From Mycoplana rhizolycopersici (lineage in GTDB: Bacteria; Pseudomonadota; Alphaproteobacteria; Rhizobiales; Rhizobiaceae): DNA of 64,000 nt. How positions within the stretch are numbered: the first letter of the stretch is position 1; each line of letters begins with the position of its first letter. A program made the position numbers and the translations under genes. Below the pieces are notes generated by a model. It saw only the letters and a program-made list of their open reading frames with translations, ran no database searches and was not told the DNA's origin. The stretch lies in assembly GCF_013378445.1 (NCBI RefSeq), contig NZ_JABXYK010000001.1, positions 372,001 through 436,000 of the forward strand, written 5' to 3'. Positions 595 through 47,055 of this stretch are shown here, piece after piece.

Positions 595-688
595 ATGCAG
601 CATCCTTTCGTTTTGCCGAGGCGCCACCGGTGGGACCGGCCCGGCGCCGTTGAATGGGCGGACCTTGGCCGATTCTGCCTTTTGGCAA

Positions 689-718
689 GCTGACAGCGCC
701 TGTCAGCAAATTGTCAGC
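689..718. promoter_or_regulatory. Repeat cluster in the divergent promoter, candidate OmpR-family regulator box
   Basis: TGTCAGC occurs at 701-707 and again at 712-718, an 11-bp period, one helical turn, as usual for sites bound by OmpR/PhoB-type winged-helix dimers. The first copy also pairs with GCTGACA at 689-695 as an inverted repeat with a 5-nt spacer. The cluster sits 23 bp before the PepSY gene, the first gene of an operon that encodes an OmpR-family regulator, so autoregulation is a reasonable inference. It could also affect the divergent RTX gene. Confidence 0.45.
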
Positions 719-740
719 TTCTCCCCGCTATGCAGGAGGC

Positions 741-1097
741 ATGACCCAGAAATCACATGTGAAACGCCTCGGGCTGCGGCTCCTGGCCGCCTGCGCGGTG
801 CTTTATCCTGCGATAGCACTCAGCGAGGCATCGCCGCCGGACGTCGACGATGTCGACGACGCCCGCGAGCATTACGAGGCACGCGAGGCCCTGCGGAAAG
901 GCGAGGTCCTGCCGCTGGAAAAAATCATCGAGGTCGTGCGCAAACAGTTCCAGGGCGATATCATCGAAATCGAGTTCGAACGGAACGACGGGAAATATGT
1001 CTACGAGATCGAGATCATCGATCCGTCGGGCCGCGTCGTCGAGATCGAGGTCGATGCGAAGACCGCGGAAATCCTGGACAGTGAGGATGGCGATTGA
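741..1097 (+). CDS. Small secreted PepSY-domain protein
   Basis: 118-residue protein with a Sec-type signal peptide (positively charged MTQKSHVKRLG, hydrophobic LRLLAACAVLYPAIA, likely cut after ALSEA) and a C-terminal PepSY-like domain. The latter is recognised from the amphipathic helix around LEKIIEVVRKQF and the strand pattern GKYVYEIEIIDPSGRVVEIEVD. The mature protein is very acidic. It is the first gene of an operon with a response regulator and a sensor kinase, so it probably modulates the kinase in the periplasm. This layout resembles rhizobial FeuN-FeuP-FeuQ, but I cannot show orthology. AGGAGG at 734-739 lies only one base before the ATG, so the start is slightly uncertain, but the signal peptide fits it well. 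The stop overlaps the TTG start of the next gene. Confidence 0.75.
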   Translation: MTQKSHVKRLGLRLLAACAVLYPAIALSEASPPDVDDVDDAREHYEAREALRKGEVLPLEKIIEVVRKQFQGDIIEIEFERNDGKYVYEIEIIDPSGRVVEIEVDAKTAEILDSEDGD

Positions 1098-1756
1098 GAC
1101 TGCTCGTTGCGGAAGACGACAAGCGTATTGCCGAGGACGTCAGAACCGTTCTGACGGCGGCGGGCTACGCCGTCGACCTAACGCATAGTGGCCAGGACGC
1201 CTGGTTCCGTGGCGATACCGAGGACTATGGCCTCGTCGTGCTCGACCTCGGCCTTCCGGGCATGGACGGCATCAGCATCCTCAAGCAATGGCGCATGAGC
1301 GGCCGGCACATGCCCGTCCTTGTGCTGACGGCGCGCGGAAGCTGGGCCGAGCGCGTCGAGGGCATCGATGCCGGTGCCGACGACTACCTGCCGAAACCGT
1401 TCCAGTTCGAGGAACTGCTGGCCCGTATCCGGGCGCTTATCCGGCGTTCGGTCGGCCACGGTGCTGCCACCATCGAGGTCGCCAGCCTGGTCGTCGATAC
1501 CCGCACGATGCGCGTCGTCGTCGATGGCATGCCGTTGAACCTGACCCCATTCGAGTATCGTCTCGTCAGTTATCTCGCCCATCATCGCGGCCGGGTCGTG
1601 CCGGCCTCGGAATTGCAGGATCACGTCTACGGCGACGACTTCTCGAGAGACGGAAACGCACTGGAGGCGATGATTGCAAGGCTGCGCAAGAAGATCGGCA
1701 GCGACGTGATTTCGACGCGGCGCGGGTTCGGCTACGTCATGGGTGACAGCGTGTGA
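1094..1756 (+). CDS. OmpR/PhoP-family response regulator
   Basis: 220 residues. The N-terminal receiver domain has the acidic pair in VAEDD, phosphoacceptor Asp51 (VVLDLGLPG), the Thr/Ser position in VLTA and Lys101 (YLPKPF). The C-terminal winged-helix DNA-binding domain ends in the typical ISTRRGFGYVM. The start is TTG at 1094, sharing bases with the preceding TGA stop (TTGA overlap), and its own stop overlaps the GTG start of the kinase, so the three genes are translationally coupled. It is expected to be phosphorylated by the downstream kinase. Closest general types are PhoP and FeuP; the exact regulon is not visible, but the TGTCAGC direct repeat before the operon is a candidate site. 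Confidence 0.9.
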   Translation: MRLLVAEDDKRIAEDVRTVLTAAGYAVDLTHSGQDAWFRGDTEDYGLVVLDLGLPGMDGISILKQWRMSGRHMPVLVLTARGSWAERVEGIDAGADDYLPKPFQFEELLARIRALIRRSVGHGAATIEVASLVVDTRTMRVVVDGMPLNLTPFEYRLVSYLAHHRGRVVPASELQDHVYGDDFSRDGNALEAMIARLRKKIGSDVISTRRGFGYVMGDSV

Positions 1757-3099
1757 TCTCGCGCCATTCCTTGCGGCTTCGTCTGGCTCTTGCAGGCGCC
1801 GCCTCGATTGGCGTCGCGCTCGTCATCGCCTTTTTCGGCCTGTCCTTTCTCTTCGAAAAGCATGTCGAACGCCGCGTGGTGGACGAACTGCGCCTTCATC
1901 TCGACCAGACCATCGCGGGCCTCGGGCCGGACCGGAACGGCATAGTCGAAATGATCCGTCCGCCGATCGACCCGCGTTTTCAGACACCGCTCTCCGGCCT
2001 CTACTGGCAGATCGAGGGCGACGGCTTCGAACGCAGGTCGCGCTCGTTGTGGGACGAGGCGTTGGATCTTCCACACCTGTCGCCCTCGGCACCGCACGAG
2101 TTTTCCTTGAAGGGGCCGGCCAATGCCGATCTCCTCGTGCTTGCCCGCGAGATCATTCCGCGCGACAGCCTTGGAGACCGCCCGATCGTCGCAGCCGTTG
2201 GCATAGACCGCTCCGACATCACGAAGGCGACCGCAGCGTTCCGCCGCAACCTTGCGCCGTTTCTGGCACTTCTGGCCGTAGTCCTGATGGCCGCGAGCCT
2301 CGCCCAGATCCTGATCGGCCTGAAGCCCCTGTCCGACTTGCGCGCGCGCATCGCGACAATCCGCAGCGGCGAGGCGCAACGCCTCGGCACTGCCTTTCCC
2401 GACGAGGTTCGACCTCTGACGATGGAGGTGGACGCCCTGCTGGTCTCGCGCGACGACCAGCTGAGGAAGGCGCGGGAACGGGCATCGGAACTTGCACACG
2501 CGTTCAAGACACCGCTGCAGGCACTTTCCGGCGACGTGCTGCGGCTAAAGCAACGCGGGCAGATCGAAGCCGCCGCCGAGATCGAGGCGCTGATCGAGGT
2601 AATGCGCCGGCTGGTCGACCATGAGATGGCGCGCGCCCGCATCGCGGGCCGGCCGCATGCGGTACGCTCCGACGTCAAGCGCGCGGTCAGCAATGTCGTC
2701 TCCGTCATCTGCCGCACACCGGCCGCCGAAGCGATAGAGTGGACAGTGGACGTTCCGAACGGGCTCTTCGCCCGCATCGACGCCGACGACCTTTCCGAAC
2801 TGCTCGGCAATCTCACGGAAAACGCCGTGCGTTACGGCCGCCAGGCAGTTTCGATAGCCGGCGTCCGGGACGGCGATTCCATCCTGATCGAGATCGCCGA
2901 CGACGGGCCCGGAATTCCGGAGGAAAAGCTCGGACACGTGCTGCGTCGCGGCACCCGGCTCGACACCAGCAGCGGCGGCGCAGGGCTCGGCCTTGCGATC
3001 AGCGAAAGCATTGTCCAGTCCGTCGGCGGCGACATCCAGCTCGCAAACGGCGCCCCCGGCCTGCGCGCCTCCATCCGTTTGCCGGCCGCCGACGGCTGA
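1753..3099 (+). CDS. Membrane sensor histidine kinase (PhoQ-like)
   Basis: 448 residues. TM1 is about residues 12-33, a periplasmic domain about 34-165, TM2 about 168-190, then a HAMP-like linker. The phosphoacceptor is His249 in the H-box LAHAFKTPLQ, a degenerate, PhoQ-like H-box. The ATPase domain shows the N box with Asn357 (GNLTENAVRYG), G1 DDGPGIP (383-389) and G2 GGAGLGLAI. It starts at GTG 1753, overlapping the regulator's stop codon by four bases. The periplasmic sensor domain is the likely contact for the co-encoded PepSY protein. The activating signal cannot be told from sequence; osmotic, cation or envelope signals are typical for this kinase group. Confidence 0.9.
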   Translation: MISRHSLRLRLALAGAASIGVALVIAFFGLSFLFEKHVERRVVDELRLHLDQTIAGLGPDRNGIVEMIRPPIDPRFQTPLSGLYWQIEGDGFERRSRSLWDEALDLPHLSPSAPHEFSLKGPANADLLVLAREIIPRDSLGDRPIVAAVGIDRSDITKATAAFRRNLAPFLALLAVVLMAASLAQILIGLKPLSDLRARIATIRSGEAQRLGTAFPDEVRPLTMEVDALLVSRDDQLRKARERASELAHAFKTPLQALSGDVLRLKQRGQIEAAAEIEALIEVMRRLVDHEMARARIAGRPHAVRSDVKRAVSNVVSVICRTPAAEAIEWTVDVPNGLFARIDADDLSELLGNLTENAVRYGRQAVSIAGVRDGDSILIEIADDGPGIPEEKLGHVLRRGTRLDTSSGGAGLGLAISESIVQSVGGDIQLANGAPGLRASIRLPAADG

Positions 3100-3247: not shown

Positions 3248-4078
3248 ATGAGCGTATTGCAGGTGACCATCGGCACGCTGGCGGTCCTGGCCGTTGCCGT
3301 ATTCGGCGGCGTCTGGGCGCTGCAGACCTATGGCATCTATCGCTTCGATCCCCATCCGGGCGTTCCCGCCGCATTCGGCCTGCCCGAAACGGTGCGGATC
3401 GCCAGCTACATGTCCGAGGACGGAGCACCGATCCACGCCTGGATCGCCGATCCCGTCCCCAGCCGCCCGGTCATCCTTGCACTTTACGGCAACCAGTCGA
3501 GCATTGGCGGCTCGATGGGGCGTATCCTTCCGCTGATCGATGCCGGATATGGCATCGTGATGATGGAGTATCGCGGCTCCGGCGCCACCGCCGGAACGCC
3601 GAGCGAGAAAAACTTCGCCCGCGACGCGCGCGCGCTCTACGACCAGATGGACACGCTCATCGGCCGCACCGTGCCGCCGCAGGAACGCGTCGTCTACGGC
3701 TTCAGCCTCGGCACCGGCGTCGGCAGCCGCCTCGCAGCTGAGCGCCCGTTCGGCGCGGCCATCTTCGAGGCAGCCCCCTACCGCAATTGCCTGTACCTGG
3801 AGGACCACTATTTCGGCCTCCCCTTGTGCCGCCTCATGTGGGCCGAGCGCTACGACATCGTCGACCACGTGCAGCATATCAAGGCGCCGAAGCTGTTCAT
3901 CCATGGTACACTGGACCAGGCCCTGCCCGTCGAGCGTGCCCGCCAACTGTTCATGGAAGCGCCGGAACCGAAGGAATACGTCCAGCTCGAAGGCGGCGGC
4001 CATGCGGACCTGCACAAGCACGGCCTCTTCTCCGCAATCGAAGCGTTTCTGCAGCAACACCTGCAGCCGGCCGATTAA
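3248..4078 (+). CDS. Membrane-anchored alpha/beta hydrolase (BEM46/YfhR-like)
   Basis: 276 residues. An uncleaved N-terminal hydrophobic segment (about 4-24) is followed by an alpha/beta-hydrolase fold. The nucleophile elbow is GFSLG, the acid lies in HGTLDQALPVERA and the catalytic His in GGGHADLH near the C-terminus. The oxyanion region reads LALYGNQ. It resembles serine hydrolases of unknown substrate in the BEM46/YfhR group. It is separated by 148 bp from the kinase gene and is convergent with the megasynthase operon, so a role as that pathway's editing thioesterase is possible but not supported by anything seen. Confidence 0.75.
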   Translation: MSVLQVTIGTLAVLAVAVFGGVWALQTYGIYRFDPHPGVPAAFGLPETVRIASYMSEDGAPIHAWIADPVPSRPVILALYGNQSSIGGSMGRILPLIDAGYGIVMMEYRGSGATAGTPSEKNFARDARALYDQMDTLIGRTVPPQERVVYGFSLGTGVGSRLAAERPFGAAIFEAAPYRNCLYLEDHYFGLPLCRLMWAERYDIVDHVQHIKAPKLFIHGTLDQALPVERARQLFMEAPEPKEYVQLEGGGHADLHKHGLFSAIEAFLQQHLQPAD

Positions 4079-4221: not shown

Positions 4222-7200
4222 CTAAGACAGCCGATCCTCGATCAACGCCGCCAGCGTCCGCGCATTTTCCTTGCGCAGCATGCTCAAGTGGTCGCCCTTG
4301 ACCCAGGGCGTGTCGAGCCGGTCCTCCGCCACAAAGGCTTTCCAGCCAAGCGTCGGGTCCTGTTCCAGCGTCAGCTTCTGCACCAGATGCAGCGGCCGCG
4401 CGCGGAAAAGCGTCACCGGCGCCTTGATCGGCCCGCCTTCATAGCGGCGCGCTGCCGCCATCCAGAGCCGCTCGACCTGCCTTTGTCTATAGAGCGGCAG
4501 GTTGAAATGCTTCATCAGTTCCAGCACCGGTCCGCGCTGGAACACATGGCGCGCCTTGGCTGCGACCCGTTTCCAGAAGTAGCCGAGCCCCTCGCCCTGC
4601 ATCAGCGATATCTCGTTTTCCAGACGCTGCCGCGGGGTCAGCCGCACCAGCGGCGTGAAGTCCTTGGCAAAACCCGGCGCATAAGTATCGAGCACGAAGA
4701 GGCGTTCGACGGTGGCGCCCTCCGCCTCCAGTTGTCGCGTCATTTCCAGGGCAGTGTAGGCGCCACCCGAATAGCCGGCAAGAATATAGGGGCCTTTCGG
4801 CTGGTGCCTGCGCATGTAGCGGATGTTTTCCGCCGCCATTTCCTCGATGCTGGCGTGCGGCGTATGCCCCTGCACGCCCCGGGTCTGGAAACCGATCGCT
4901 GGTCGCTTCCGGCCGAGAAGCGTCCCGAGTTCGAACAGGTTGTTGACGTTGCCGCCGACACCGCCGACGACGAAGAAGGGAGCGCCTCCGCTCTCCGGCC
5001 CGGGATCGATGACGGTGCTGGTGTCCCAGGGCGCTTCCGGCCCTTCCAGCGCCACGACATCCCGTTCCAGCAAGGCCGCAAGCTGACGAACGGTCTGGTT
5101 GCGGAAGAGCGTCGAAATCGGCAGGTCGTGACCGAACTCCCGGCGAACGCGGTCGAACAGCCGGACGGCCAGCAGCGAATGCCCGCCAAGCGCAAAGAAG
5201 TTGGCGCACGCTCCGACCCGCTCCACGCCGAGCACTTCGCACCATATCTGGGCGAGCCGAATTTCCATCTCCCCCTGCGGCTTCTCCGCCGCCGGGTCCG
5301 CAACCGCATCCAGCCTTACCGCCGGCAGCCGGCAGCGGTCGACCTTACCGTTGTGATTGAGCGGAATTTCATCAACCGGAACATAGAATGCCGGGCGGGC
5401 GAATTCGGGAAGCATCGCCGCGACGTGCTCTGACAATTCCCGTGAAGAGGGCGCCTCACCCTCCGCCAGGAAATAGGCGACGAGAATCTTGTCGGACTGC
5501 CCCTCCGGCACCCTGGCGACCGCCACGGCCTGCCGGATGGCCGGATGGCTTTCCAGCGCCCCTTCGATTTCCGTCAGTTCCACGCGGAAGCCCCGCACCT
5601 TGACCTGCGTGTCGGCCCGACCGAAGAAGCGGATGATTCCGTCGCCCGGATCCATCGCCAGATCGCCGGATCTGTAGAGGGCGAGTTGCGGATCCCACGG
5701 TGCCTTGACGAATCGCTGCGCCGTCAGTTCCGGCCGGTTCCAGTAGCCCAGCGCCAGCCCTCTGCCCGCGATGCACAGCTCGCCGATCATGCCGGTCGGC
5801 ACCGGCTGCAACGCATCATCGAGAATGTAGATCTGCGTGCCGGGAATGGCCTTGCCGATCGGCAGCGGCAATCCGCGCTCGAGATCGCCTGCGCTCACTG
5901 CGTGGGCATTCGTCACGTTGCTTTCCGTCGGCCCGTAACCGTTGATCACGGTCAGCCCGGGGCAGGCGGCCATCACCTGCGCGACATGGACGGGAGAGAC
6001 CACGTCGCCGCCGACCACGACCTGATCGACCCTGGCAAAAGCACCCGGCCGCATATCCGCCACGGCATGGAACAGACCCGAGGTCAGCCACAGCGTATTG
6101 ACGCCGTTGCTCTCGATCGCGTCGGAGAGATCGGAGATGGACAGGGTGCCGTCCGGTGGCACCACGATCGTTCCGCCGTGCAGGAGGGCGGCGAACAGGT
6201 CGATGATCGATGTATCGAAGGCGAACGCAGACGAATGCAGCGTCACCGTCTCCGGACCGAGCCGTAGCCAGTCCGTATCGCGCAGCAGCCGGATAACCGA
6301 CCGATGCGGCAATACCACCCCCTTCGGCACGCCGGTGGTGCCCGACGTAAACATCACATAGGCGATCGTTTCGCCGGTCACGCCGGGCTCCGGCGCATCC
6401 CGCACTTCGGTCGGAAAGTCCTCCATCCGGATCGTCCGCACGCCGGTCACAGCCACGGCGTCGCAATCGCCGAGCAGAACCTTGATGCCGGTATCGCGCG
6501 CCATGAACTGCAGCCGGTCGGGCGGCAGCGTCACGTCGAATGGCACGTAACCGGCCCCTGCTTTCAGCGCCCCCATAACCGCCACGGGCAGGAGCAGCGA
6601 CCGGCTCGACGATATGCCCACGAGATCACCGTGGCGCACGCCTTCAGAGGCGAGCAGCGCGGCCAGCGCGTCGGTGCGGGCATCGAGCGTGGCATAGTCC
6701 ATTGCCTGGTCGAGGTAGCGCACCGCGACCTGGTTGGGCGCACGCGCGACGACTGCACGGAAGATTTCCGGAATGGTTTGCGGTCCAGCCGCTGCCGGGT
6801 CGATGTGGCTGCCGCTCGCCGGACGGCTGGCATCGCCCCGCAGGAGGGTGGAGACGACAGACTTCAGGCCATCCGGAGCCGAAGCAATCGCATCGAGGAA
6901 CTGCCGGAAGTTCGTAGCATGGTGGGTGATCGTCTCCTTCTCGAACAGTTCGGTGGCATAGTTCCACGACAGTTCCACGCGGCCCGGCGATTCGAACAGG
7001 TTGAAGAACAGTTCGAAATACTCATGCCCGGTCGAATTGACGTCGACGCGTGCCGGGGCATCGCCGAACAGCAGCTCGCCGATATCGGCAAGCCCGTCGA
7101 TATTGACCACGACAGGCACGAGCGCCAGGCGCGAGGGGTCGCGCGGCATCTGCAGGTCGCGCATCAGCGAACCGTAGGTGTAGTTCTGGTGATCGAGCGC

Positions 7201-10200
7201 TTCCAGCAGTTCCTGCCGTGTCTGCGACAGCAGTTCGCCGAGCCTGACGTCAGGCTTGATCGTGCCGCGAACAGGCAGCAGGCTGACCGCATGGCCGACC
7301 GCCGCTTCGAGGCGATGCGAAAGCTGGCCGGAAGCGGGTAGGCCGATCACCACGTCGCTCGATCGCGTCAGGCGCGACAGATAGTAACGGAACGCCGAGA
7401 AGACCAGATTGCGCAGCGACGTCCCGGCTTCCTGCGCCCGCGCCCGCAACGCTGCCTCCAGCCCTGCGTCGATCCTGGTCTCCACCCGATCGGCTTGCGT
7501 TCCGCGTGCGACCGGATAGGGCCAGTCGGTCGGAATATCGATCGCAGGCAATGGCCCCGCATATTTCTCAAGCCAGTAGGCCCGGTGACGCGCAGCATCC
7601 GCGCTTGATGCCCACTCAGTTTCGGCTGCGACCAGATCAGCGATGCTCGTTGCCGGCGGCAATGCGGCCTGCCGACCGCGCAGCCGCGCGCTGTAGAGTT
7701 GCGCGAGATCGGAAAGCAGCACGCCCATCGACCAGCCGTCGCAGGCGATGTGATGCACGAGCAGGATGATTTCGGCCTTCGCCGGCGCTAGCCGCAACAG
7801 CAAGGTGCGCAACACCGGCCCGTTCACGAGATCGAACGGTCTGGCGCCAAAATCGGCGTGCAGAGCATTGCGTCGGGCGCGCTGCTCCAGTTCGCACAGG
7901 CTGGACATATCCTCCTCTTCGAAGGACACCTCACGGCGCGGGTGGATCGTCAACGTGACATTGTCCACGTCGAAGGAGGCACGCAGGCTGTCGTGGCGCG
8001 CCACCAGATCCTCAAGCGCCGTCTGCAGAGCGCCCGCATCGATTGCCGTGTCGAGATGGAGACTGAAGGACAGGTTATAGGAGAGCGATGCGGAAGGATT
8101 GATGCTGATCGCGGCTGCGATCTCGCGCTGACCTTCCGTCATTCCAAGCCGGCGTACTTCCGTCGCCGTCGCCTGAGCGGGCGCCAGTGCCTGTGCCGGT
8201 GGAACCACAGCCGCCGGTGGCGGCAACATTGCCTCGCCCCCCGGAACCTGCTCGCGCACGAGTGCGGCAAGTCCGCTGAGCGTCGAAGCCTGAAACAGCG
8301 ACGCCAGCGGAAGCGAGGCCCCGAGATCCTTGCGTACGCGGGCGAACATCCGCACCGCGTTGAGAGAATGTCCACCGAGCGCGAAGAAGTCGTCTTCCGG
8401 CCCGACGTCGCTCACCCCCAGGATTTCGCCCCAGATGGCCGAAAGCTGCGCCGTGATGGGGTCGCTTATCCTGCCGCCGCCACCCTGCCGCGCCGGACGC
8501 GCACTCGGTGGCGCTGCAACTTCCGCAATGGCAAGGCGAACATGATCGAGCGAAACGGGGGAGACGACCAGCTGCCGGCCGGGATGTGCGAAGACGCGGG
8601 GAAAGAGCTCCGGCGCTTCGGCTACACGGATGCCGGTGGCAAGTAGCTGCGTCGTCAGGCTCGGTTTGGCCGCGGCACCGAAACCATCCAGCTCTACCGC
8701 CCGCATTGCGAAATTCTCGAGGATGACGACCGGTCGACCGGCATCGTCAAGAACCGCGACGTCGAAGGAACTGAACCGGCCTGCCTCGCCGCCCACCCGG
8801 ACAGCACGGCCCGTCACCGCAGCGGGCACCGGCCCGAACACGCGCATCCGGCCGATCGACATCGGAACCCACAGCTTGCCGTCCAGTCGATCGACGGTCA
8901 GAAGACCGACCGTGGCCGCCATATCCATCAGCGCTGGATGAAGGTTGTGGGCTTCCAGATCACGCACGAAGGCCTCCGAAAGGCGGAATTCGCCCTCGGC
9001 AACGCCGTCGCCGGCGCGTAGTGCCTCGATGCAGTTCCACCGCGGTCCGAATGCGATGGTGCCTTGCTGCGGGGCCTTGCCTCCATCGAGCTTCGTCCCT
9101 TTCAGCAGGGCGACCCCGAGCGCCCTTGGCAGGCGGTCGTCGACCTGCTGCATCGCCAGCACCTGCAGCCGGACGTGCTCGGTCGGTTCACGTTCCGAAC
9201 CGACGCTACTCTCGATCGTCATGTCGTAGCCATCGGCGCGCGGCTGAAGCCGGATCGCGACGCGCCGCGGCATGTCTTCAAACGTCATCGGCAGTGCAAA
9301 GGAAAGTGCCGCCAGCTCGAAGCTACGCTCTCTCATGACCACCCGTGCCGCTGCCTGGGCGAGCTCCATATAGGCCGTACCGCACAACACCGGCCGTCCG
9401 GCGACCACATGTTCGGAGACCCGCCAGTCGGTCTGCGGATCGATGACCGTTTCAAACCGGACGCTGCCGTCCGGCGTATCGATGCGCTGGCCGAGCAGAG
9501 CGTCGCCCTCCGCGTGGTCGCCCGCACCATAGGCCCGTGCCGCCATGCCCGTATCACGCCATGCCCCCCAGGCGATCGAGAACCCGTCTGACCGCGCCGC
9601 GGCAAGCGATTCAAGCGCCGCATTGGCTGCCGCGTAAGCCGCCTGCCCCGCACCGCCGATCACGACGGAGGAGGAGGAAATCACGGCGAAGAGATCGAGA
9701 CTGCCCACTGGAAGAAGCCGGCTCAGCACCATTGCGCCCTCCAGCTTGGGCCGCATCACTGCAAGTGCCTCGGCAAGCGGCTGGCTGGCAAGCGGGGCAT
9801 CGTTCAGGACACCGGCGGCATGGACGACGCCATGCAGCGCGCCGAAGCGCGACCGCGTCGTCTCGATCGTCCGCGCCACGGCCGCCTCGTCGGCGACATC
9901 GGCCGCCAGAAACAGGACGGCGCCACCGGCTGCCTCGATCTCCGCCCGAAGTGCCGCATCCTCTGCAGCCGAGCGAGACAGCAAGGCAAGTCGCGCGCCC
10001 GCCGTCTTGGCGAGCCACAGCGCGAGCTGGCGTCCGATGCCGCCGGTTCCGCCGGTGATGAGATAAGCGCCGCCCGCACGAAGCCTTTCGGGCAGGCGCG
10101 CTGGAGCCGGAGCCCGAACACGCGATCTCGTTTGGACGAAGCGACGTTTTCCCCGAAGCGCCACATGGTCCGCTTCGCCATCGGCGGCGGCCTCGGCAAT

Positions 10201-13200
10201 GAGCGCTGCAACCGTCGCCGGATCGGCGGATGGCGCCAGATCCACCAGAGCCGCTGACATGCCGGGGACTTCGCGCGGGGCGACACGAACGATGCCAAGC
10301 AGGGCGCCATCGGTCGGACGCTCCGGCTGTTCGTCGGGAAATGCTACCGTTCCCGCCGCGGCAATCACCAGCCGCGTTCCCGGCTCGGGGTCGGACTGCT
10401 GCAGGAAACGGGCCAGCAGGTAGGAGGCTGCAAAGGCCTTGTGTGCCACTGCCGGATCGAGCTCCCAGAGAACGAGGACCTTTGCAGGCACGGACGGCAT
10501 TGCGACCGCCAGCGCCTCGAAATCCTCTTGTGCATCGGGGCGCAGCACATATCCGCCGGCTGCCGCGGCAAAGGCATCGCCCACGCGAAGCACGCTTACC
10601 CGCGCGCCTGCTTCCGACAGCCGAGCCAGCACCGCTTCGGAAACAGCATCGTCGCCAGCAAGCACCAGCCAGTCACCGCCGGGCTGCGTCGCAACGCCGG
10701 AGCGCGGCCGTTCCGCCCAACCCAGCACCTCGACCCATTCGGATGGATCGGCGATGCGGGCAAGCACGGGCGCAGGATCCTCGGTTGCCTCTCCTGACTT
10801 TCCGCGGCCGGGCGATATCCAGTGGCGTTCCTTCTCGAAGGGATAGGTCGGCAGCGACACACGCCGTCCCTCACGCCCGGGCAACCTGCGGGCATCCAGT
10901 TCGAACCCATTCGCCCACAGGCCGCCGAGGGCGGCGACCGCCACGCCCATTTCGTCCTCCGCGTCGCGGGGACGCGGCGCCGAAGGCAGGATGGCGCGCG
11001 GCGCATTCCGGGTGGTAGCCGCGGCCACCAGCGGTCCGACAGTCTGCCCGGGACCGACCTCGATCACCACACTGTCGGGCGCTTCCAGCACCGCAGCCAC
11101 AGCATCGGCAAAGCGCACCGTGTGGCGCAGGTGGCGAACCCAGTAGTCGATGGAAACGAAATCCTGCCCGTCGCCCCAGCTGCCGCGCAGCGATGACACC
11201 ATCGGCACGGTCGGCTCACGGAACGAAATCCCCTGCAGCCCTTCGCGGAATCGTTCGAGCTGATCGTCCAACTGGCGGGAATGGGCCGCAACGTCGATAT
11301 GAATGCGACGCGCCTCGTGCTCGCTGCCGGCAAGGCGTGCCTCCAGCGCCTCGATCCCTGCGACAGGACCGGAAACGACGGTCGACTGCGCAGAATTGAC
11401 GGCGGCGATGTCGAGCCCCTCGCCGATCAGTTCGCGCACCCGCACCTCTCCCAACGGCACAGCCGTCATGGCCCCTGCCGGAGCCTGCTCCATCACCTGG
11501 CCGCGCAGGGTGACAATCCGCAATGCGTCGGCCAGCTCCATGACGCCGGCGGCGACCGCCCCGGCATACTCGCCGACACTGTGCGCCACGATCGCATCCG
11601 GCCGCACGCCCCAGCTCTCCCAGAGCTTGGAATAGGCGTATTCGAGGATGAACAGCGCCGGAATGGCATAGCTCGAACGGCCGAGCTTGCCTCTCGCCTT
11701 GTCGTCGGAGAGCCGCGCGCCGAACATCACCTGCCGTAGATCGGACGGCACCGAATCCGGCAAAAGAGCGAAGCACTGGTCGACGGCAGAGGCGAACACC
11801 GGCGAGGCTGCCATCATGCCAGCGCCAGCGCCTGGATATTGCGCCCCGCCGCCAGGAAACAGGAAGATGATCCGCGGCGGCGCGCTGCCCGCCTTGCCAT
11901 GCCGGCGCAGCGGCGTCGCCTTCGCCGTGAGCGCGCCCTTCAGATCGTCGCCCGAGCGGGCAGCGATCGCGAAGCGTTCCGGAAAGTGCCGGCGTCCCTC
12001 GCGCAGGGTGAACGCAACGTCCTCGATTGCCGGCAACTCGCCGCCGGCAAAGGCCTTCCATTGTTCGCGCTGGCGCTCGAGTGCAGCCGTGCTGCGGGCC
12101 GAAAAGGGAAAGAGCCGCCATTCGGACCGCGGCGCAGGCTGCTGCCGCTCGGGCGCCTCTTCGACGATGACATGCGCGTTCGTGCCGCCCACGCCGAGCG
12201 AGTTGACCGCAGCCCGACGCGGTCCGGAAGAAGTCGCCGCCCATTCGCGTCCCTCGGCCACCACCTGGAAGGGGCTGGCCTTGAAATCGAACCGGCTGTT
12301 GGGCTTTCTGAAATGCAGGCTTGCCGGCAGTCGGCGGTGCCGCAGGGCCTCGACCACCTTGATGAGGCTTGCAGCACCCGCTGCGGTGTCGAGATGGCCG
12401 ATATTGGTTTTGACCGATCCGATCCCGATGCTGCCGGCCGGTGCCGCGCCATAGACCTGCTTCAGCGCCGCAAGCTCGATCGGGTCGCCGATCGGCGTGC
12501 CGGTGCCGTGCGTCTCGATATAGGAAAGATCGCGCGCCTCGATACCCGAAAGCGCCAGTGCCTCTGCGGCCGCCTCCGCCTGGCCGTCCACCGAAGGCGC
12601 CAGATAGCTCGCCTTGCCGGCACCGTCATTGTTGACCGCGCTTGCCAGGATCACGGCCTTGATGTCGTCACCGTCTGCAACCGCGTCCTCAAAGCGACGC
12701 AAGACGACGAGAGCAGCGCCGGATCCGAAGACGGTTCCCTTGCTGTCGTCGTCGAAGGCGCGGCACAGGCCGTCCGGCGACAGGATCTCGCCTTCCGCGT
12801 AGCGATAGCCGGTGCGGTGCGGGAGCTCGATCGTCACCCCGCCAGCAATCGCCATGTCGCACTCCATGTTCAGCAGCGAACCGATCGCCGTGTGAACGGC
12901 GACGAGCGACGTGGAGCAGGCCGTCTGGACGGCGACCGATGGCCCGGTCAGGTTGAGAAGGTAGGACAGGCGCGTCGGCAGGAAATCCTTGTCGTTGCCG
13001 GTGTGGCGCAAGAGGAAGAGACCGATTTCCTCGACGAGATCGGGATTGCTCAAGAGGTTGAAGGGAAGATAGGCCTGCATGCCCGAACCCGCGAAGACCC
13101 CGATGCGGCCATCGAACCGCTCGGGTACATAGCCGGCATCCTCCAGCGCCTCCCAGCCACATTCGAGGAAATGGCGGTGCTGGGGATCGAGGATCGACGC

Positions 13201-13458
13201 TTCGCGCGGCGAAAAACCGAAGAAGCTGGCGTCGAAGCACTCCATGTCCGGCAGCACATGGGCGACCCGCACATACGCAGGATCGGCAAGCCTCTTGCGG
13301 CTCACGCCGGCTGCAATCAGGTCCGCCTCGCCGAGGCGCTGTTCGGCCGAACGGCCCTCCGACAGCAGCGTCCAGAAATCGCTGACATTCCGCGCGGAGG
13401 GAAAGCGCCCGGCACGGCCGACGATTGCGATGCGATTGTCCGGTTGGTTTTTGTCCAT
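4222..13458 (-). CDS. Hybrid polyketide synthase / nonribosomal peptide synthetase with terminal thioesterase (KS-AT-KR-DH-ACP-C-A-PCP-TE)
   Basis: 3078 residues. KS spans about 7-435 with catalytic Cys181 (TACSTSL), His317 (ETHGTG) and His355 (TNIGHLD). AT spans about 528-820 with Ser627 (AHSVGE). KR spans about 905-1310 with nucleotide loop GGTGGIG at 1136 and Tyr1275/Asn1279. A hot-dog DH follows at about 1330-1590, with His1350 and Asp1512; its first motif ends in Cys1359 where Pro is usual. ACP carries Ser1698 (LGGHSL). C has HHIACDG at 1902. A spans about 2225-2720, with Asp2415 in A4 and Lys2705 in A10. PCP carries Ser2761. TE spans about 2825-3078 with likely triad Ser2897 (GYSGG), Asp2924 and His3057. 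It should take the aminoacyl chain from the upstream protein, add one ketide unit, reduce and possibly dehydrate it, add one amino acid and release the product. It starts 32 bp after the stop of the upstream synthetase gene. Substrates are not predicted. Confidence 0.95.
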   Translation of the reverse strand: MDKNQPDNRIAIVGRAGRFPSARNVSDFWTLLSEGRSAEQRLGEADLIAAGVSRKRLADPAYVRVAHVLPDMECFDASFFGFSPREASILDPQHRHFLECGWEALEDAGYVPERFDGRIGVFAGSGMQAYLPFNLLSNPDLVEEIGLFLLRHTGNDKDFLPTRLSYLLNLTGPSVAVQTACSTSLVAVHTAIGSLLNMECDMAIAGGVTIELPHRTGYRYAEGEILSPDGLCRAFDDDSKGTVFGSGAALVVLRRFEDAVADGDDIKAVILASAVNNDGAGKASYLAPSVDGQAEAAAEALALSGIEARDLSYIETHGTGTPIGDPIELAALKQVYGAAPAGSIGIGSVKTNIGHLDTAAGAASLIKVVEALRHRRLPASLHFRKPNSRFDFKASPFQVVAEGREWAATSSGPRRAAVNSLGVGGTNAHVIVEEAPERQQPAPRSEWRLFPFSARSTAALERQREQWKAFAGGELPAIEDVAFTLREGRRHFPERFAIAARSGDDLKGALTAKATPLRRHGKAGSAPPRIIFLFPGGGAQYPGAGAGMMAASPVFASAVDQCFALLPDSVPSDLRQVMFGARLSDDKARGKLGRSSYAIPALFILEYAYSKLWESWGVRPDAIVAHSVGEYAGAVAAGVMELADALRIVTLRGQVMEQAPAGAMTAVPLGEVRVRELIGEGLDIAAVNSAQSTVVSGPVAGIEALEARLAGSEHEARRIHIDVAAHSRQLDDQLERFREGLQGISFREPTVPMVSSLRGSWGDGQDFVSIDYWVRHLRHTVRFADAVAAVLEAPDSVVIEVGPGQTVGPLVAAATTRNAPRAILPSAPRPRDAEDEMGVAVAALGGLWANGFELDARRLPGREGRRVSLPTYPFEKERHWISPGRGKSGEATEDPAPVLARIADPSEWVEVLGWAERPRSGVATQPGGDWLVLAGDDAVSEAVLARLSEAGARVSVLRVGDAFAAAAGGYVLRPDAQEDFEALAVAMPSVPAKVLVLWELDPAVAHKAFAASYLLARFLQQSDPEPGTRLVIAAAGTVAFPDEQPERPTDGALLGIVRVAPREVPGMSAALVDLAPSADPATVAALIAEAAADGEADHVALRGKRRFVQTRSRVRAPAPARLPERLRAGGAYLITGGTGGIGRQLALWLAKTAGARLALLSRSAAEDAALRAEIEAAGGAVLFLAADVADEAAVARTIETTRSRFGALHGVVHAAGVLNDAPLASQPLAEALAVMRPKLEGAMVLSRLLPVGSLDLFAVISSSSVVIGGAGQAAYAAANAALESLAAARSDGFSIAWGAWRDTGMAARAYGAGDHAEGDALLGQRIDTPDGSVRFETVIDPQTDWRVSEHVVAGRPVLCGTAYMELAQAAARVVMRERSFELAALSFALPMTFEDMPRRVAIRLQPRADGYDMTIESSVGSEREPTEHVRLQVLAMQQVDDRLPRALGVALLKGTKLDGGKAPQQGTIAFGPRWNCIEALRAGDGVAEGEFRLSEAFVRDLEAHNLHPALMDMAATVGLLTVDRLDGKLWVPMSIGRMRVFGPVPAAVTGRAVRVGGEAGRFSSFDVAVLDDAGRPVVILENFAMRAVELDGFGAAAKPSLTTQLLATGIRVAEAPELFPRVFAHPGRQLVVSPVSLDHVRLAIAEVAAPPSARPARQGGGGRISDPITAQLSAIWGEILGVSDVGPEDDFFALGGHSLNAVRMFARVRKDLGASLPLASLFQASTLSGLAALVREQVPGGEAMLPPPAAVVPPAQALAPAQATATEVRRLGMTEGQREIAAAISINPSASLSYNLSFSLHLDTAIDAGALQTALEDLVARHDSLRASFDVDNVTLTIHPRREVSFEEEDMSSLCELEQRARRNALHADFGARPFDLVNGPVLRTLLLRLAPAKAEIILLVHHIACDGWSMGVLLSDLAQLYSARLRGRQAALPPATSIADLVAAETEWASSADAARHRAYWLEKYAGPLPAIDIPTDWPYPVARGTQADRVETRIDAGLEAALRARAQEAGTSLRNLVFSAFRYYLSRLTRSSDVVIGLPASGQLSHRLEAAVGHAVSLLPVRGTIKPDVRLGELLSQTRQELLEALDHQNYTYGSLMRDLQMPRDPSRLALVPVVVNIDGLADIGELLFGDAPARVDVNSTGHEYFELFFNLFESPGRVELSWNYATELFEKETITHHATNFRQFLDAIASAPDGLKSVVSTLLRGDASRPASGSHIDPAAAGPQTIPEIFRAVVARAPNQVAVRYLDQAMDYATLDARTDALAALLASEGVRHGDLVGISSSRSLLLPVAVMGALKAGAGYVPFDVTLPPDRLQFMARDTGIKVLLGDCDAVAVTGVRTIRMEDFPTEVRDAPEPGVTGETIAYVMFTSGTTGVPKGVVLPHRSVIRLLRDTDWLRLGPETVTLHSSAFAFDTSIIDLFAALLHGGTIVVPPDGTLSISDLSDAIESNGVNTLWLTSGLFHAVADMRPGAFARVDQVVVGGDVVSPVHVAQVMAACPGLTVINGYGPTESNVTNAHAVSAGDLERGLPLPIGKAIPGTQIYILDDALQPVPTGMIGELCIAGRGLALGYWNRPELTAQRFVKAPWDPQLALYRSGDLAMDPGDGIIRFFGRADTQVKVRGFRVELTEIEGALESHPAIRQAVAVARVPEGQSDKILVAYFLAEGEAPSSRELSEHVAAMLPEFARPAFYVPVDEIPLNHNGKVDRCRLPAVRLDAVADPAAEKPQGEMEIRLAQIWCEVLGVERVGACANFFALGGHSLLAVRLFDRVRREFGHDLPISTLFRNQTVRQLAALLERDVVALEGPEAPWDTSTVIDPGPESGGAPFFVVGGVGGNVNNLFELGTLLGRKRPAIGFQTRGVQGHTPHASIEEMAAENIRYMRRHQPKGPYILAGYSGGAYTALEMTRQLEAEGATVERLFVLDTYAPGFAKDFTPLVRLTPRQRLENEISLMQGEGLGYFWKRVAAKARHVFQRGPVLELMKHFNLPLYRQRQVERLWMAAARRYEGGPIKAPVTLFRARPLHLVQKLTLEQDPTLGWKAFVAEDRLDTPWVKGDHLSMLRKENARTLAALIEDRLS

Positions 13459-13490
13459 GCTCGGTTCGTTCTCCCTTGCGGACTTTGCCG

Positions 13491-16400
13491 TTAGCGCCGG
13501 CCGAGGCGGGCAAGCCGCGCCGCGGCACGCGCGGCACCGCGATCGACGGCGCTGGCTGTCTCCGGAACACTGCCGGCAAGGTGCAGCGCGATCGCGCGGA
13601 TCGTCGGGAAGCGGAACAGGTCGGTAATCCCCACCTCCCGGCCGAGCTCTTCCTTCATCCGGCGCTGGACCTGCACGACGAGCAATGAATGACCGCCGAG
13701 GTCGAAGAAGTTCTCCGTTACCGAGACATTCTCCAATCCCAGCGCATCACGCCATATGGCCGCGATCCCGGTCTCCATATCGCCCTCTGCCGCGGTGATG
13801 ACGCCCTGCTCGACGCGCCCGGAAGGCATCGGAAGCGCCTTGCGGTCGATCTTGCCGTTCGGCGTCAGCGGCATCCGCTCCAGGAGCACGATCTGCGAAG
13901 GCACCATGAAATCTGGCAGCGTCGCCGCGAGGCCCGCACGCAGCTCGTTCACCGACGGGCGCGCGCCAGCCGGGGTTACGTAGGCGACGAGCCGCACGTC
14001 GCCTGGTCCGAATTCCACCGCCTTGACCGCAGCCTGGGCGACGGTGTCGGAAGCGGCAAGCCGCGCCTCGATCTCGCCGAGCTCGATCCTGTGGCCCCGA
14101 ATCTTGACCTGGCCGTCGATGCGCCCGAGGAATTCCAGGCTGCCGTCCGGATGCCTGCGCACGAGGTCACCCGTGCGGTAGAATCGTCCCTCCGGGGTAT
14201 CGACGAAACGCTCGACGTTGAGCTCCGGTCGGTTCCAGTACCCGTGGGCAAGCCCCGCGCCGCCGATCCACAGCTCGCCCTCGACCAGTTCCGGCAATGG
14301 CCGGCCGGCAAGCGAGCGCACGCTCAGCTCCGTATTGGCGATCGGCTCGCCGAGCGGCACCCGGTCCGAAACGCTGTCGAGCCGCGCGACGGAAGACCAG
14401 ATCGTCGTCTCCGTCGGCCCGTACATGTTCAGGAGCGTTCCGGGCATCGCTGTGCGCAGGCTGCGCGCCAGATCCGGCGGAAACGCCTCGCCGCCAACCA
14501 TCATGCAATCGAGCCGCGAAAGCGCCCGTCGCCCGGCCGCATCGCCGGCGAGATAGCTCGCCATCGACGGTGTGCACTGCAGGTGGGTGATTTCCGACCC
14601 GAGGATGTCTTCGGCCACAGAGGCCTTGCGCGTCACCCCGCCTTCGGCGAGGAGCCCGTCCATCATCCGGCGAATGTTCGGCAGGTTGGCAAGTGCCGTC
14701 TCCGTTTCGACGCCGAAGTCGATCAGACAGGCGATCTCGTCCACTCCGATCGCGGAGACGTTTCGGACCATCTCCCTGGCGGTTTCGGGCGTGCCGAACA
14801 GGCCGGCCGTGCGATAGTAGCGCTCGAACGCATGGTCCAGCAGAGCATCGAGTTCGTCGGTCGAAAGCTCTTCCTTCTCGAAGATTTCCTGCGGCGTCCT
14901 TCCGGCCTTGCCGGCGCGCTCGACGATGGTGGGGAATGTCCAGGCTGCCCTGCGAACGAGATCGACCGCACTCTTGAGATAGCTTTTCATCGGCTTGCGT
15001 GCAGCGGCCAGCACCGTTTCCTCGTCTTCACCGATGAAGGTGTGCAGCATCAGCACCACATGGCCGGGTCCGGCATGCCCGGCCTCCGCACGAGCGATAC
15101 GGTAGCTGCGGATCTTGTCTTCCACTTCGGAAAGCGTCTGACCGAGCAGATGGGTGAGGACGCCGCATCCCATTCGGCCGGCGGCAATGAAGGTCTCCGG
15201 ATTTCCGGCCGCGGTCAGCCATAGCGGCATGTCGCGCTGGACCGGCCGTGGGTGGATCTGGATCTCGACGTCCCGGCCGTCATGGCCTGGAAACGTCATC
15301 GTCTCGCCGCGCCACAACTTGCGCAGCGTCTCCACCGAGGCGAGCATGATGTCCTTGCGCTCAGTGAAAGCTTCGGGGCGAAGGAGGAAATCGTTCGGCT
15401 GCCATCCCGAAGCCAGCGCCAGCCCGGCCCTGCCGTTGGAGAGATTGTCGACCAGCGCCCAGTCTTCGGCCGCGCGCACGGGATGGTGCAGCGGAAGTAC
15501 CGTCGAACCGGCCCTGAGCTTGACGTTCTTCGTCAGTCCGGCAAGGGCTGCGGAACTGATTGCCGGGTTGGGATAAAGCCCGCCGAACGCGTGGAAATGC
15601 CGCTCCGGCGTCCAGACCGCCTCGAAGCCGTTTTCATCGGCAAAGCGGGCTCCCTCCAGGAGCAGCCGGTAGGCCTGATGACCGCTGCCCGCGGCTTCCG
15701 AGGCAAAGTAGAACAGCGAGAACGCCGGCAGCGCCGCCTCGCCGGCGCCGTCCGTCTGCAGCACGACCGTCGCCCCGCGACTGAGCGTCCAGAGAAGTTC
15801 GAGCACGGAAATGTCGAAGGAGACGGAGGTGACGGCGAGGAGCCGCGCACTCGGCGACAGCGGCACCGCCGCATCCATGCCGGCGAAGAAGTTCGCCACG
15901 CTCTGATGCGCGATCATCACGCCCTTGGGACGCCCGGTCGAGCCCGAGGTATAGATGAGGTAGGCGAGGTCGTCGGCACCGCCGCGCAAATCGTCGACGG
16001 CCGTGCCTGCAGCATCGGGATGAATCACCCGCCCGGGATCGAGCGCAAGCCGGCTTGCCGCGCTGCGGCTCGCCACGACCAGGGTCGAAGCGGAATCCTG
16101 GAGCATGAAGCCGATCCGCTCCGGCGGATAGGCCGGGTCGAGCGGCAGATAGGCCGCCCCTGTTTTCAGGATTGCCAGCATGGAAACGACGAGGTCCGCC
16201 GAGCGCTCGAGGCAGAGACCGACGACCGTGCCGGGCGCAGCCCCGCGCTCGACAAGCGCACCGGCAAGCCGCGCTGCCCGCGCATCGAGCTCGGCATAGG
16301 TCAGCCGAACCGTACCCGCCTCCAGAGCGATCGCTTCCGGCGTCTGGCGGCAGGCTGCGGCAAACTGCTCGTGGATGGTGCGGGTTTCGACAACCGCCTG

Positions 16401-17951
16401 ATCGTTGCGCAGCGAAGCGGTCCGCACGCCAAGCGGCAAGGTCGCAAGCGGCGCTCCCGCCTTCATATGGAAGGCCGCAAGGAATGTGTCGAAATCGGCG
16501 GCAAGAGCCGCAAGAACGGAGGGGGCATAGAGCCCGTTGCCGACAGCAATCGCCGAAGGATGCAGACAAAGCGCGAGGCTGCCGTCGGTCGGACTATCCT
16601 CCGGCTTGTCGACGACGACGATCCGCAGCGCCTGGAGGGCTGCTCGCCTCGTCTCGGGGTCAACCAGCCGCATCGGCAGGTCCGCCGCCATCGGCGCCCG
16701 CGCAAGGATCTCTTCCCGCGCGGCGCGCACAGCCGTCGTCGCTTCGGTTGGCGTGGCGCAGCAGGAGAGATCGAGCGTCATGGGGCGGCGGCTCGAGAGC
16801 CAGACGGCAACCGGCTTCGGATCGATCAGCGTAACCGTCGCCAGCGGCTGCCCGCTCAAGCCGCAGACCCAGGCGAGCCAGGCCGCGATCAGCGTGTCGG
16901 TCTCGACGCCGTCGGCTTTCAGCGGCGCAGACCCGCCTTCCGCGGTATGCGACTGCGGATAAGGAGGCACTGCCGGAGCCGCGTGCCGCAATACGGCCTC
17001 CCATGCCGGTTCAGCCTTTCCGATGTCCGCAAGGGCCGGCGCGACGGGATCAACCGACAGCGATTGCAGGGGCAACATGACGCCAGGCACCAGCCCCGCG
17101 GCAACCGGATCGACCGGCCGCCCGTCGAGATGGGCAAGCTCGCTGAGGCGGACGGCCTTGTCGGCGGCCATCACGGTGAGCGAACCGGCATCGCTCGCAA
17201 GGATTTCACCTGCAGGCGCAGCAAGGCCCGGGACGATCTCAAGCCGGCCGACTGTCACGAGATGCCGCCCTGACCAGATTTTTGCGAGCGCGAGCGGGTT
17301 CGCGTAGCCGCCGAAATTCAGGCCACGTACGACGCGGCAGAGTTCCTGTGCCGGCTTGTGGAAATCGAGCGTTCCGTGCAATTCCGGCCGCTTCGCTTTC
17401 GCATACCATTTGCGCGCACCGACAGGCTCGACGGGCATGCAGCGACTGTCGGCCAGTTCGGAGACCAACTCGGTGAAACTTTCGAATCCGGCTTCATAGC
17501 AGCGTGCGTTCAGGCTGAATGCCGTGTCAGTCCCATGGATCGCGAACCGCCGCTGCTTGAGGATGCGCCCCGCATCGACGCATCCGGTCATTTCATGCCA
17601 GGTCACGGCGTGCTCGTCCGCCCCCTCGATGATCGACCAGGCCGGCACGTTCGATCCCGCACGCGCGGGCAGCGGTCCGTCGTGGAAGTTCACGGCCATG
17701 TGCCGGGCACGCACGAGCGTGGACGCCGGAAGCACTGTCAGGTTCGCGACGCTGAAGAGATAGTCGGCATCGGTTCCGCCCTGCGCCGCCTCCTCGTAGC
17801 CTTCGCAACGAACGGCTTCGGCTGCGGCCCATGCGGCGATCTGCGGATCGGAAGTGACAACAGCCTCGATCGCGCCGCCTGCCTTGCGAAAGGCATCCGC
17901 GCAACGAAGCAACAGCGTTCCGTCACCACAGAAAATGGCGCTCAGATTCAT
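13491..17951 (-). CDS. Loading NRPS: formyltransferase - condensation-like remnant - adenylation domain split by luciferase-like monooxygenase - PCP
   Basis: 1486 residues. Residues 1-290 match methionyl-tRNA formyltransferase-type enzymes, with the Asn88/His90 pair (VNFHDGPLP) and Asp126 (GCVDAGRIL) in the catalytic positions, as in formylating NRPS loading modules such as LgrA. About 340-510 resembles the C-terminal half of a condensation domain without HHxxxDG. The A domain starts near 525 (A3 YTSGSTGRPKG at about 667; A4 SFDISV with Asp713). It is interrupted at about 743-1100 by an FMN-dependent luciferase-like monooxygenase of the NRPS-associated MupA/Atu3671 type. It resumes at about 1120 (GGEAF, YGPTE at 1177, YRTGD, NGKIDR with Lys1367). 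The PCP has Ser1422 (LGGHSL). Inferred role: activate and N-formylate the first amino acid, perhaps oxidise it, and pass it to the KS of the next protein. First gene of the operon; no strong Shine-Dalgarno is seen. Confidence 0.93.
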   Translation of the reverse strand: MNLSAIFCGDGTLLLRCADAFRKAGGAIEAVVTSDPQIAAWAAAEAVRCEGYEEAAQGGTDADYLFSVANLTVLPASTLVRARHMAVNFHDGPLPARAGSNVPAWSIIEGADEHAVTWHEMTGCVDAGRILKQRRFAIHGTDTAFSLNARCYEAGFESFTELVSELADSRCMPVEPVGARKWYAKAKRPELHGTLDFHKPAQELCRVVRGLNFGGYANPLALAKIWSGRHLVTVGRLEIVPGLAAPAGEILASDAGSLTVMAADKAVRLSELAHLDGRPVDPVAAGLVPGVMLPLQSLSVDPVAPALADIGKAEPAWEAVLRHAAPAVPPYPQSHTAEGGSAPLKADGVETDTLIAAWLAWVCGLSGQPLATVTLIDPKPVAVWLSSRRPMTLDLSCCATPTEATTAVRAAREEILARAPMAADLPMRLVDPETRRAALQALRIVVVDKPEDSPTDGSLALCLHPSAIAVGNGLYAPSVLAALAADFDTFLAAFHMKAGAPLATLPLGVRTASLRNDQAVVETRTIHEQFAAACRQTPEAIALEAGTVRLTYAELDARAARLAGALVERGAAPGTVVGLCLERSADLVVSMLAILKTGAAYLPLDPAYPPERIGFMLQDSASTLVVASRSAASRLALDPGRVIHPDAAGTAVDDLRGGADDLAYLIYTSGSTGRPKGVMIAHQSVANFFAGMDAAVPLSPSARLLAVTSVSFDISVLELLWTLSRGATVVLQTDGAGEAALPAFSLFYFASEAAGSGHQAYRLLLEGARFADENGFEAVWTPERHFHAFGGLYPNPAISSAALAGLTKNVKLRAGSTVLPLHHPVRAAEDWALVDNLSNGRAGLALASGWQPNDFLLRPEAFTERKDIMLASVETLRKLWRGETMTFPGHDGRDVEIQIHPRPVQRDMPLWLTAAGNPETFIAAGRMGCGVLTHLLGQTLSEVEDKIRSYRIARAEAGHAGPGHVVLMLHTFIGEDEETVLAAARKPMKSYLKSAVDLVRRAAWTFPTIVERAGKAGRTPQEIFEKEELSTDELDALLDHAFERYYRTAGLFGTPETAREMVRNVSAIGVDEIACLIDFGVETETALANLPNIRRMMDGLLAEGGVTRKASVAEDILGSEITHLQCTPSMASYLAGDAAGRRALSRLDCMMVGGEAFPPDLARSLRTAMPGTLLNMYGPTETTIWSSVARLDSVSDRVPLGEPIANTELSVRSLAGRPLPELVEGELWIGGAGLAHGYWNRPELNVERFVDTPEGRFYRTGDLVRRHPDGSLEFLGRIDGQVKIRGHRIELGEIEARLAASDTVAQAAVKAVEFGPGDVRLVAYVTPAGARPSVNELRAGLAATLPDFMVPSQIVLLERMPLTPNGKIDRKALPMPSGRVEQGVITAAEGDMETGIAAIWRDALGLENVSVTENFFDLGGHSLLVVQVQRRMKEELGREVGITDLFRFPTIRAIALHLAGSVPETASAVDRGAARAAARLARLGRR

Positions 17952-25258: not shown

Positions 25259-25408
25259 GGCTCTCAGACGGCGCGGTCTGGTAGGCGAACCGCCAGGGGC
25301 CCGTGTCCGTTCAGGTGAGGATTTGCAAGCGGCATCGATCGATCTCCCGACAACAATCATGGAGATCCAGGTGAAGCGGAGAATAGAAAGAGGCGCCTTG
25401 GCTGGCGT

Positions 25409-25497
25409 TTTCCGTTCCTACGCCGGTATGACCCGGATCAGGTTCAAGGGTCCGGCTCACCGCCATCTCAGCACCGTTCGGTGCTCCCCTCGGAATA
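25409..25497 (-). promoter_or_regulatory. TPP riboswitch (THI element)
   Basis: On the minus strand the conserved THI-box core is clear: a 5' stem GGGGAGCACC...GGTGCTGAGA (P2/J3-2 with CTGAGA), then GACCCTTGAACCTGATC, and the closing GTCATACCGGCGTAGGAA. These blocks bind the pyrimidine and the pyrophosphate of TPP. The element ends about 50 nt before the ATG at 25360 and 150 nt before the preferred start of the ThiX-like permease. It should switch off the downstream thi-TRAP operon when thiamine is plentiful. The 5' edge lies only about 30 bp after the stop of the upstream MFS gene on the same strand. Confidence 0.95.
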
Positions 25498-25528
25498 GGT
25501 GGGAAACTGACCAAGTCTCGTGCGAATG

Positions 25529-42034: not shown

Positions 42035-42069
42035 TTGGTCACCTGAAGCAAATTGCGGGACGGGAAAGG

Positions 42070-47042: not shown

Positions 47043-47055
47043 GGGCTTGCGCTGC

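Follow-up and report, generated by a model that had tools for sequence, protein, structure and literature searches.

A rare three-gene variant of an orphan NRPS-PKS family in Mycoplana rhizolycopersici combines a formyltransferase-type start with an embedded monooxygenase

Introduction

An FMT-A(Gly)-PCP starter has been proposed to provide the N-formylglycine thioester in conglobatin biosynthesis (cited part of PMC4504003). Luciferase-like monooxygenase (MOX) domains located between a4 and a5 of glycine A domains are described, in the cited parts of PMC10204066 and PMC11342130, as hydroxylating the alpha-carbon in the myxothiazol and melithiazol lines, where cleavage follows. Solanimycin B keeps its alpha-hydroxyglycine, and its MOX lies between a8 and a9 (cited part of PMC10204066; see also that of PMC11342130). 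For MupA, in vitro work showed alpha-hydroxylation of a beta-keto chain bound to an ACP (cited part of PMC10952193).

Here we describe a locus of Mycoplana rhizolycopersici located in the window, i.e., the whole stretch of 64,000 nucleotides that was analysed. The initial annotation presented it as a compact two-protein assembly line. Our analysis shows the line to be real and under selection, a rare variant with three genes within a broader orphan family of NRPS-PKS systems.

Domain Organization of the Assembly Line

Two intact ORFs are situated on the reverse strand, 32 bp apart, at positions 4222–17951 (Table 1), in agreement with the initial annotation. The domain order read there, FMT-(C-like)-A/MOX-PCP followed by KS-AT-KR-DH-ACP-C-A-PCP-TE, is borne out by Pfam and TIGR04020 and, for the C-like part, by predicted structure; catalytic residues of FMT, KS, AT, KR, DH, ACP and TE were found.

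Table 1. Features of the cluster and its neighbouring genes (nucleotide coordinates are those of the window; aa, amino acid positions in the respective protein).
Feature	Protein	Amino acids	Coordinates	Strand	Length	Basis or remarks
Initiation protein			13491..17951	-	1486 aa	ORF, Pfam, TIGR04020
FMT domain	Initiation	1–285	17097..17951	-		PF00551 and PF02911
Half condensation domain	Initiation	about 286–525	16377..17096	-		without HHxxxDG; predicted structure
A domain, glycine-type	Initiation	525–1375		-		split by MOX
MOX, luciferase-like monooxygenase	Initiation	744–1096	14664..15722	-		TIGR04020; inside A domain
PCP	Initiation	1396–1458		-		Pfam carrier
Elongation protein			4222..13458	-	3078 aa	ORF, Pfam, residue reading
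KS	Elongation	8–440				C/H/H
AT	Elongation	531–806				S/H/R
KR	Elongation	1130–1302				K/Y/N
DH	Elongation	1321–1590				His1350, Asp1512
ACP	Elongation	Ser1698				
C domain	Elongation	1789–2205				Pfam
Second A domain	Elongation	2233–2705				code DTILVGGVTK
PCP	Elongation	2734–2797				Pfam carrier
TE	Elongation	about 2850–3078				S/D/H
Alpha/beta hydrolase			3248..4078	+	276 aa	convergent with elongation protein; third cluster gene
OmpR-type response regulator and histidine kinase			1094..3099	+		adjoins hydrolase

The N-terminal FMT domain is fused to the initiating A-PCP, a feature of the LgrA/conglobatin type, from which N-formylation is predicted. Its residues Asn88, His90 and Asp126 are present in 84 of 86 distinct loci, the window included, the remaining two having gaps there; this set is composed of 77 loci (76 with readable A codes), 8 further ones and that of genome G796. 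Pfam produced no match over the C-like piece of the protein, whose predicted structure resembles condensation domains; the match is often to the later part of these. Since the half carrying HHxxxDG is absent, an active condensation role for this piece was rejected.

The MOX domain matches TIGR04020 (MupA/Atu3671 monooxygenase) with 485.9 bits at a cut-off of 244.45. It is flanked by pieces of the A domain, FDISVLE before and YGPTETTIW after, positions which we take to place the insertion between a4 and a5. Motif landmarks and alignment gave the code of this A domain as DILQMGMIWK, and the pattern DILQ[MLFYC]GM[IV]WK is found in 85 of 85 readable codes among the 86 loci. Judged by DILQLGLIWK, which we take to be the glycine reference code, the first amino acid, left without a name in the initial annotation, is probably glycine, while the product stays a prediction.

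The elongation protein possesses KS, AT and ACP with their catalytic residues, as in a cis-AT type I PKS. Its AT motif is VAAHS, neither of the two textbook AT motifs. The initial annotation also expected ketoreduction and perhaps dehydration, and the KR and DH residues are indeed present; however, the DH motif carries Cys1359 in all six proteins of the window's genus, a position occupied by Pro in 6/6 other proteins with the C-A-PCP module (hereafter C-A proteins) and in 58/58 proteins of the simple type lacking it, which makes dehydration unsure.

The code of the second A domain is DTIL[VI]GGVTK in 11 of the 12 C-A loci and DAFLLGGVCK in the twelfth, that of G796. From the hydrophobic look of both codes, the second amino acid may itself be hydrophobic, and the differing code of G796 suggests that it may vary between loci. 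We know of no A code matching DTILVGGVTK, and a search of solved structures with this domain gave no close specific relative; together with the other code in G796, this led us to abandon naming the second amino acid.

In genome G796 (L129–L130), a second assembly line of 3504 aa lies upstream of the C-A cluster at a distance of about 2.5 kb; it comprises A, KS, AT, an aminotransferase-like stretch, C, A and TE (carrier and aminotransferase labels come from reading the sequence). The A domain that opens this line shares 54% identity with the second one of the window's line, which does not reveal the substrate.

Convergent Hydrolase and Neighbouring Two-Component Genes

A gene encoding an alpha/beta hydrolase adjoins the elongation gene convergently in 12 of 12 C-A loci, which represent only about four independent settings: the window, five relatives from its genus, four genomes of the Phenylobacterium family (two of them Phenylobacterium), Aliiroseovarius sp. 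M344 and G796. None of 12 simple-type genomes or records holds a close copy (two of them have matches of 31–32% identity and 79–88 bits). This linkage extends the cluster from the two genes initially annotated to three. No hydrolase match was obtained in G001, the genus member without the pair.

The triad Ser153/Asp223/His252 is invariant in all 12 hydrolases. The structural model (pLDDT 79.5) shows an N-terminal helix at aa 3–26, and by fold it matches esterases and S9 peptidases. The protein is probably membrane-anchored; we infer that it faces outwards and would act on the finished product, be it in maturation, export-side cleavage or self-protection.

The response regulator and kinase genes lie next to the hydrolase in four of the five pair-bearing relatives of the genus, and they are not in the stretch of G003 that was examined. 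It is possible that this loosely linked pair regulates the cluster.

Wider Two-Gene Family and Origin of the Variant

The C-A loci belong to a wider family in which FMT-A(Gly,MOX)-PCP is encoded beside KS-AT-KR-DH-ACP-TE, found in Rhodobacteraceae, Methylobacterium, Ramlibacter and others. The window line differs in having C-A-PCP between ACP and TE; since it shares all family features except a TE directly after the ACP, it is a variant of this family and not the isolated novelty it had seemed.

Scanning the FMT region against genome contigs revealed at least 574 relatives at an E-value of 1e-3, among at least 590 pattern matches, and the best 80 of these relatives were surveyed. Loci of sufficient length mostly encode FMT-A(MOX)-PCP and KS-AT-KR-DH-ACP-TE; only L018 and L019, both from Phenylobacterium, have C-A in the PKS. 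By motif, 56 of the 80 hold FMT-MOX and KS, 10 FMT-MOX only, 9 KS only and 5 neither, numbers that are lower bounds because contig ends and strict motifs cause misses (L018 and L019 hold both proteins and were missed, their MOX motif being different). Within the 56 two-protein loci, the order is PKS, a gap of over 600 bp and FMT in 36; FMT stands directly before the PKS in 10 and the PKS directly before FMT in 9, and one locus is divergent.

In Ruegeria (L005), the gene in this gap is annotated as a glycosyltransferase of family 2; 45 of 78 loci have a homologous ORF, which in 35 immediately precedes FMT. A glycosyltransferase-like ORF often separates the two genes in simple-type loci of Rhodobacteraceae (L027–L096 and L005). 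Polysaccharide genes surround the annotated loci L004 and L005, the former of which also has a PPTase next to it. A link of the simple family to the envelope or exopolysaccharide merits its own study.

The C-A version is rare in the genomes searched. Of 385 class genomes, it occurs in that of the window alone, and seven, this one included, encode a full-length initiation protein. It occurs further in four of 199 genomes of the Phenylobacterium family, and as one true case among three genomes with matches when 394 genomes of the Roseovarius family were searched. A quick KS tree built from 79 rows, with SH-aLRT support and no bootstrap, puts the 12 C-A rows together in a single group (SH-aLRT 99), within a larger set with simple types from Ramlibacter, Methylobacterium and Hyphomonas. 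This single grouping suggests that the extra C-A-PCP module was probably gained once.

Conservation and Selection

The initial annotation named conservation of the pair in related strains as support for its reading, and six of seven genus genomes examined, the window's own included, encode the initiation protein in full length. All five relatives among them also carry the elongation protein, and G001 lacks both the initiation protein and the hydrolase. The other 54 genomes of that search show no full-length initiation protein among the best matches listed.

Compared with the nearest relative, G004, dN/dS is 0.16 for the initiation protein, 0.10 for the elongation protein and 0.20 for the hydrolase. 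The pair is thus under purifying selection which, with the intact ORFs, fits the complete colinear line proposed initially; these ratios and the presence in six of seven genus genomes show that the locus is not a product of chance.

Against G004, MOX has the lowest dN/dS among all domains of both proteins (0.019). In comparisons with two more distant relatives it reaches 0.068 and 0.078, and some domains of the elongation protein are more constrained in both, among them KS (0.060 and 0.059). Within the initiation protein, MOX is lowest in two of the three comparisons, the PCP (63 codons; 0.042) falling below it in one; in two comparisons constraint is weakest in the half condensation domain, which equals FMT in the third.

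Such constraint argues against MOX being a silent insert, in which case a plain N-formylglycine starter would lead to a 4-formamido-3-hydroxybutyryl or 4-formamidocrotonyl amide. The scanned ORFs of the window contain no flavin reductase family and the conglobatin starter was proposed without a MOX (cited part of PMC4504003), both in line with a silent domain, but for MupA the reductase is presumed to be encoded elsewhere in the genome (cited part of PMC10952193), and we consider this explanation quite improbable.

Proposed Biosynthesis

We hypothesize, at about even odds, that the three genes form a working cluster joining an N-formyl-alpha-hydroxyglycyl starter to one AT-loaded unit, processed by KR and DH, and then through an amide bond to a second amino acid, with release by TE. 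We infer every chemical step, including the order of formylation and oxidation and the retention of the hydroxyl. The initiation protein would activate glycine and load it on its own PCP, where FMT would N-formylate and MOX alpha-hydroxylate it. KS of the elongation protein would accept this starter and add one unit, probably malonyl; KR would reduce the keto group and DH would probably dehydrate, giving 4-formamido-4-hydroxycrotonyl-ACP. The C domain could then join the crotonyl unit to the second, perhaps hydrophobic, amino acid, and TE may release the product as an acid or a ring. Conglobatin-like oxazole formation was considered and is thought unlikely, since the intact KR would remove the keto group it needs.

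We favour hydroxylation of PCP-bound formylglycine with the hydroxyl kept, because N-acylation is expected to stabilise the hemiaminal, and otherwise there would be little use for FMT. Against retention stands the fact that, in the cited descriptions of both a4/a5 precedents, hydroxyglycine collapses, and there the module is terminal and not initial. If the carbinolamide collapsed here as in myxothiazol, KS would extend a glyoxylyl-S-PCP and the formyl nitrogen would be lost as formamide. Such a course has in its favour the a4/a5 insertion and the glycine-type A domain, shared with the enzymes for which cleavage is described, yet formylation would be pointless if the nitrogen were discarded, and the FMT residues are kept in 84 of 86 loci (gaps in two). 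Moreover, the myxothiazol glyoxylyl is released by TE, not extended, as described in the cited part of PMC10204066. We regard collapse as improbable.

Alternatively, MOX might act later in the line, as MupA, whose family it shares, required an ACP-bound beta-keto substrate in vitro (cited part of PMC10952193). MOX would then work in trans on the beta-ketoacyl chain of the ACP, placing the hydroxyl alpha to the thioester and leaving the starter as plain N-formylglycine. This is rather unlikely, given that MOX is embedded in the glycine A domain of the other polypeptide, and that in the a4/a5 examples the target is the glycine of the same module (cited parts of PMC10204066 and PMC11342130).

Starting from the favoured N-formyl-alpha-hydroxyglycyl starter, a bolder conjunction may be drawn for the whole family, which taken jointly we consider doubtful. 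Oxidised N-formylglycine, a formyl-stabilised hemiaminal, would prime the PKS in both types and yield the 4-formamido-4-hydroxycrotonyl unit, a masked C4 electrophile. TE of the simple family would lactonise it to 5-formamido-2(5H)-furanone (C5H5NO3, 127.027 by arithmetic), and in the variant this crotonyl unit would be joined to an amino acid, the conjugate possibly closing to a formamido-lactam. The dedicated hydrolase would have been added when the extra module was gained.

Genome Setting and Significance

As initially annotated, the surroundings provide no PPTase, MbtH protein or iron-uptake gene: Pfam found none among the 39 of the window's ORFs that were scanned. Genome-wide, there is one condensation-domain match and no MbtH match. 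The ACPS family is matched twice, and one of these matches falls in a 279-aa frame, a candidate for the PPTase on which the line would depend.

NRPS-PKS lines of related bacteria can make metallophores, fabrubactin of Agrobacterium being an example. It is very improbable that this cluster does so: no TonB receptor and no family for siderophore uptake or export occurs among the same 39 ORFs, and no catechol or hydroxamate group is predicted in the product. With iron genes absent among the scanned window ORFs, the siderophore reading was set low.

The flanks comprise genes for a TRAP transporter, PutA and NAD-glutamate dehydrogenase, a thiamine operon with a TPP riboswitch, and asd-, leuB- and leuD-like genes. 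A search of the assembly yielded no 16S gene, whereas the NAD-glutamate dehydrogenase gene shows 77.7% identity to Shinella, from which membership of Rhizobiaceae would follow. The TPP riboswitch, the only Rfam hit at gathering score in the 64-kb window, is located at 25398–25500 (-) and precedes thiamine genes encoding an NMT1/THI5-like binding protein and a permease, together with thiM, thiE and thiD. Further along, at 40736–48096 (-), an amidohydrolase and an amidase are encoded along with an ABC uptake system of the Bmp/PnrA type, perhaps as a nucleoside or amide catabolic set.

The family represents an orphan pathway spread across several bacterial groups, many copies lying beside polysaccharide genes, and it is tied to a testable chemical prediction, namely oxidised formylglycine as a PKS primer. 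The variant offers a natural case of an NRPS module set before TE, together with a hydrolase gene, in apparently three orders of Alphaproteobacteria. Its product, if found, would give the first structural anchor for many unassigned clusters of the wider family.

Comparison with Known Systems

LgrA, of linear gramicidin synthetase, is the best solved-structure match of the initiation protein, and there too FMT starts the line, an NRPS. LgrA is not known to contain a MOX or, between FMT and A, a half condensation domain, nor to work with a PKS partner.

In conglobatin and oxazolomycin initiation, FMT-A(Gly)-PCP feeds a KS, as proposed for the window, but the cited part of PMC4504003 describes a start without MOX in which formylglycine is cyclised to an oxazole. 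Like the window's line, those of myxothiazol and melithiazol have a glycine A domain with MOX inserted between a4 and a5; according to the cited parts of PMC10204066 and PMC11342130, cleavage of their chain leaves an amide, and TE sets free the remaining glyoxylyl part. In contrast to these terminal modules, the MOX module of the window starts the line with FMT, and its TE is on the other protein.

Our literature search, which did not cover MIBiG, found no description, product or colinear characterised cluster of this family; the cited parts of PMC4598715, PMC8949500, PMC13252402, PMC12858407 and PMC8739492 do not describe this line.

Other close counterparts are known as sequence records. Members of the wider family (Ruegeria L005, Aminobacter L004, Methylobacterium L003 and Ramlibacter L021) have KR before DH and the catalytic residues as in the window, and the initiation proteins of the first three are 41–52% identical to ours. 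They differ in having no C-A-PCP before TE and, in the 12 checked, no close hydrolase; many of their loci run PKS, glycosyltransferase, FMT, with polysaccharide genes around the annotated ones. The plasmid cluster of Aliiroseovarius sp. M344 (NZ_CP081154, L002), a record that is annotated only, belongs to another bacterial order and has other surroundings, yet both proteins (57% and 54% identical) are encoded there in the order of the window, along with the convergent hydrolase (51% identical).
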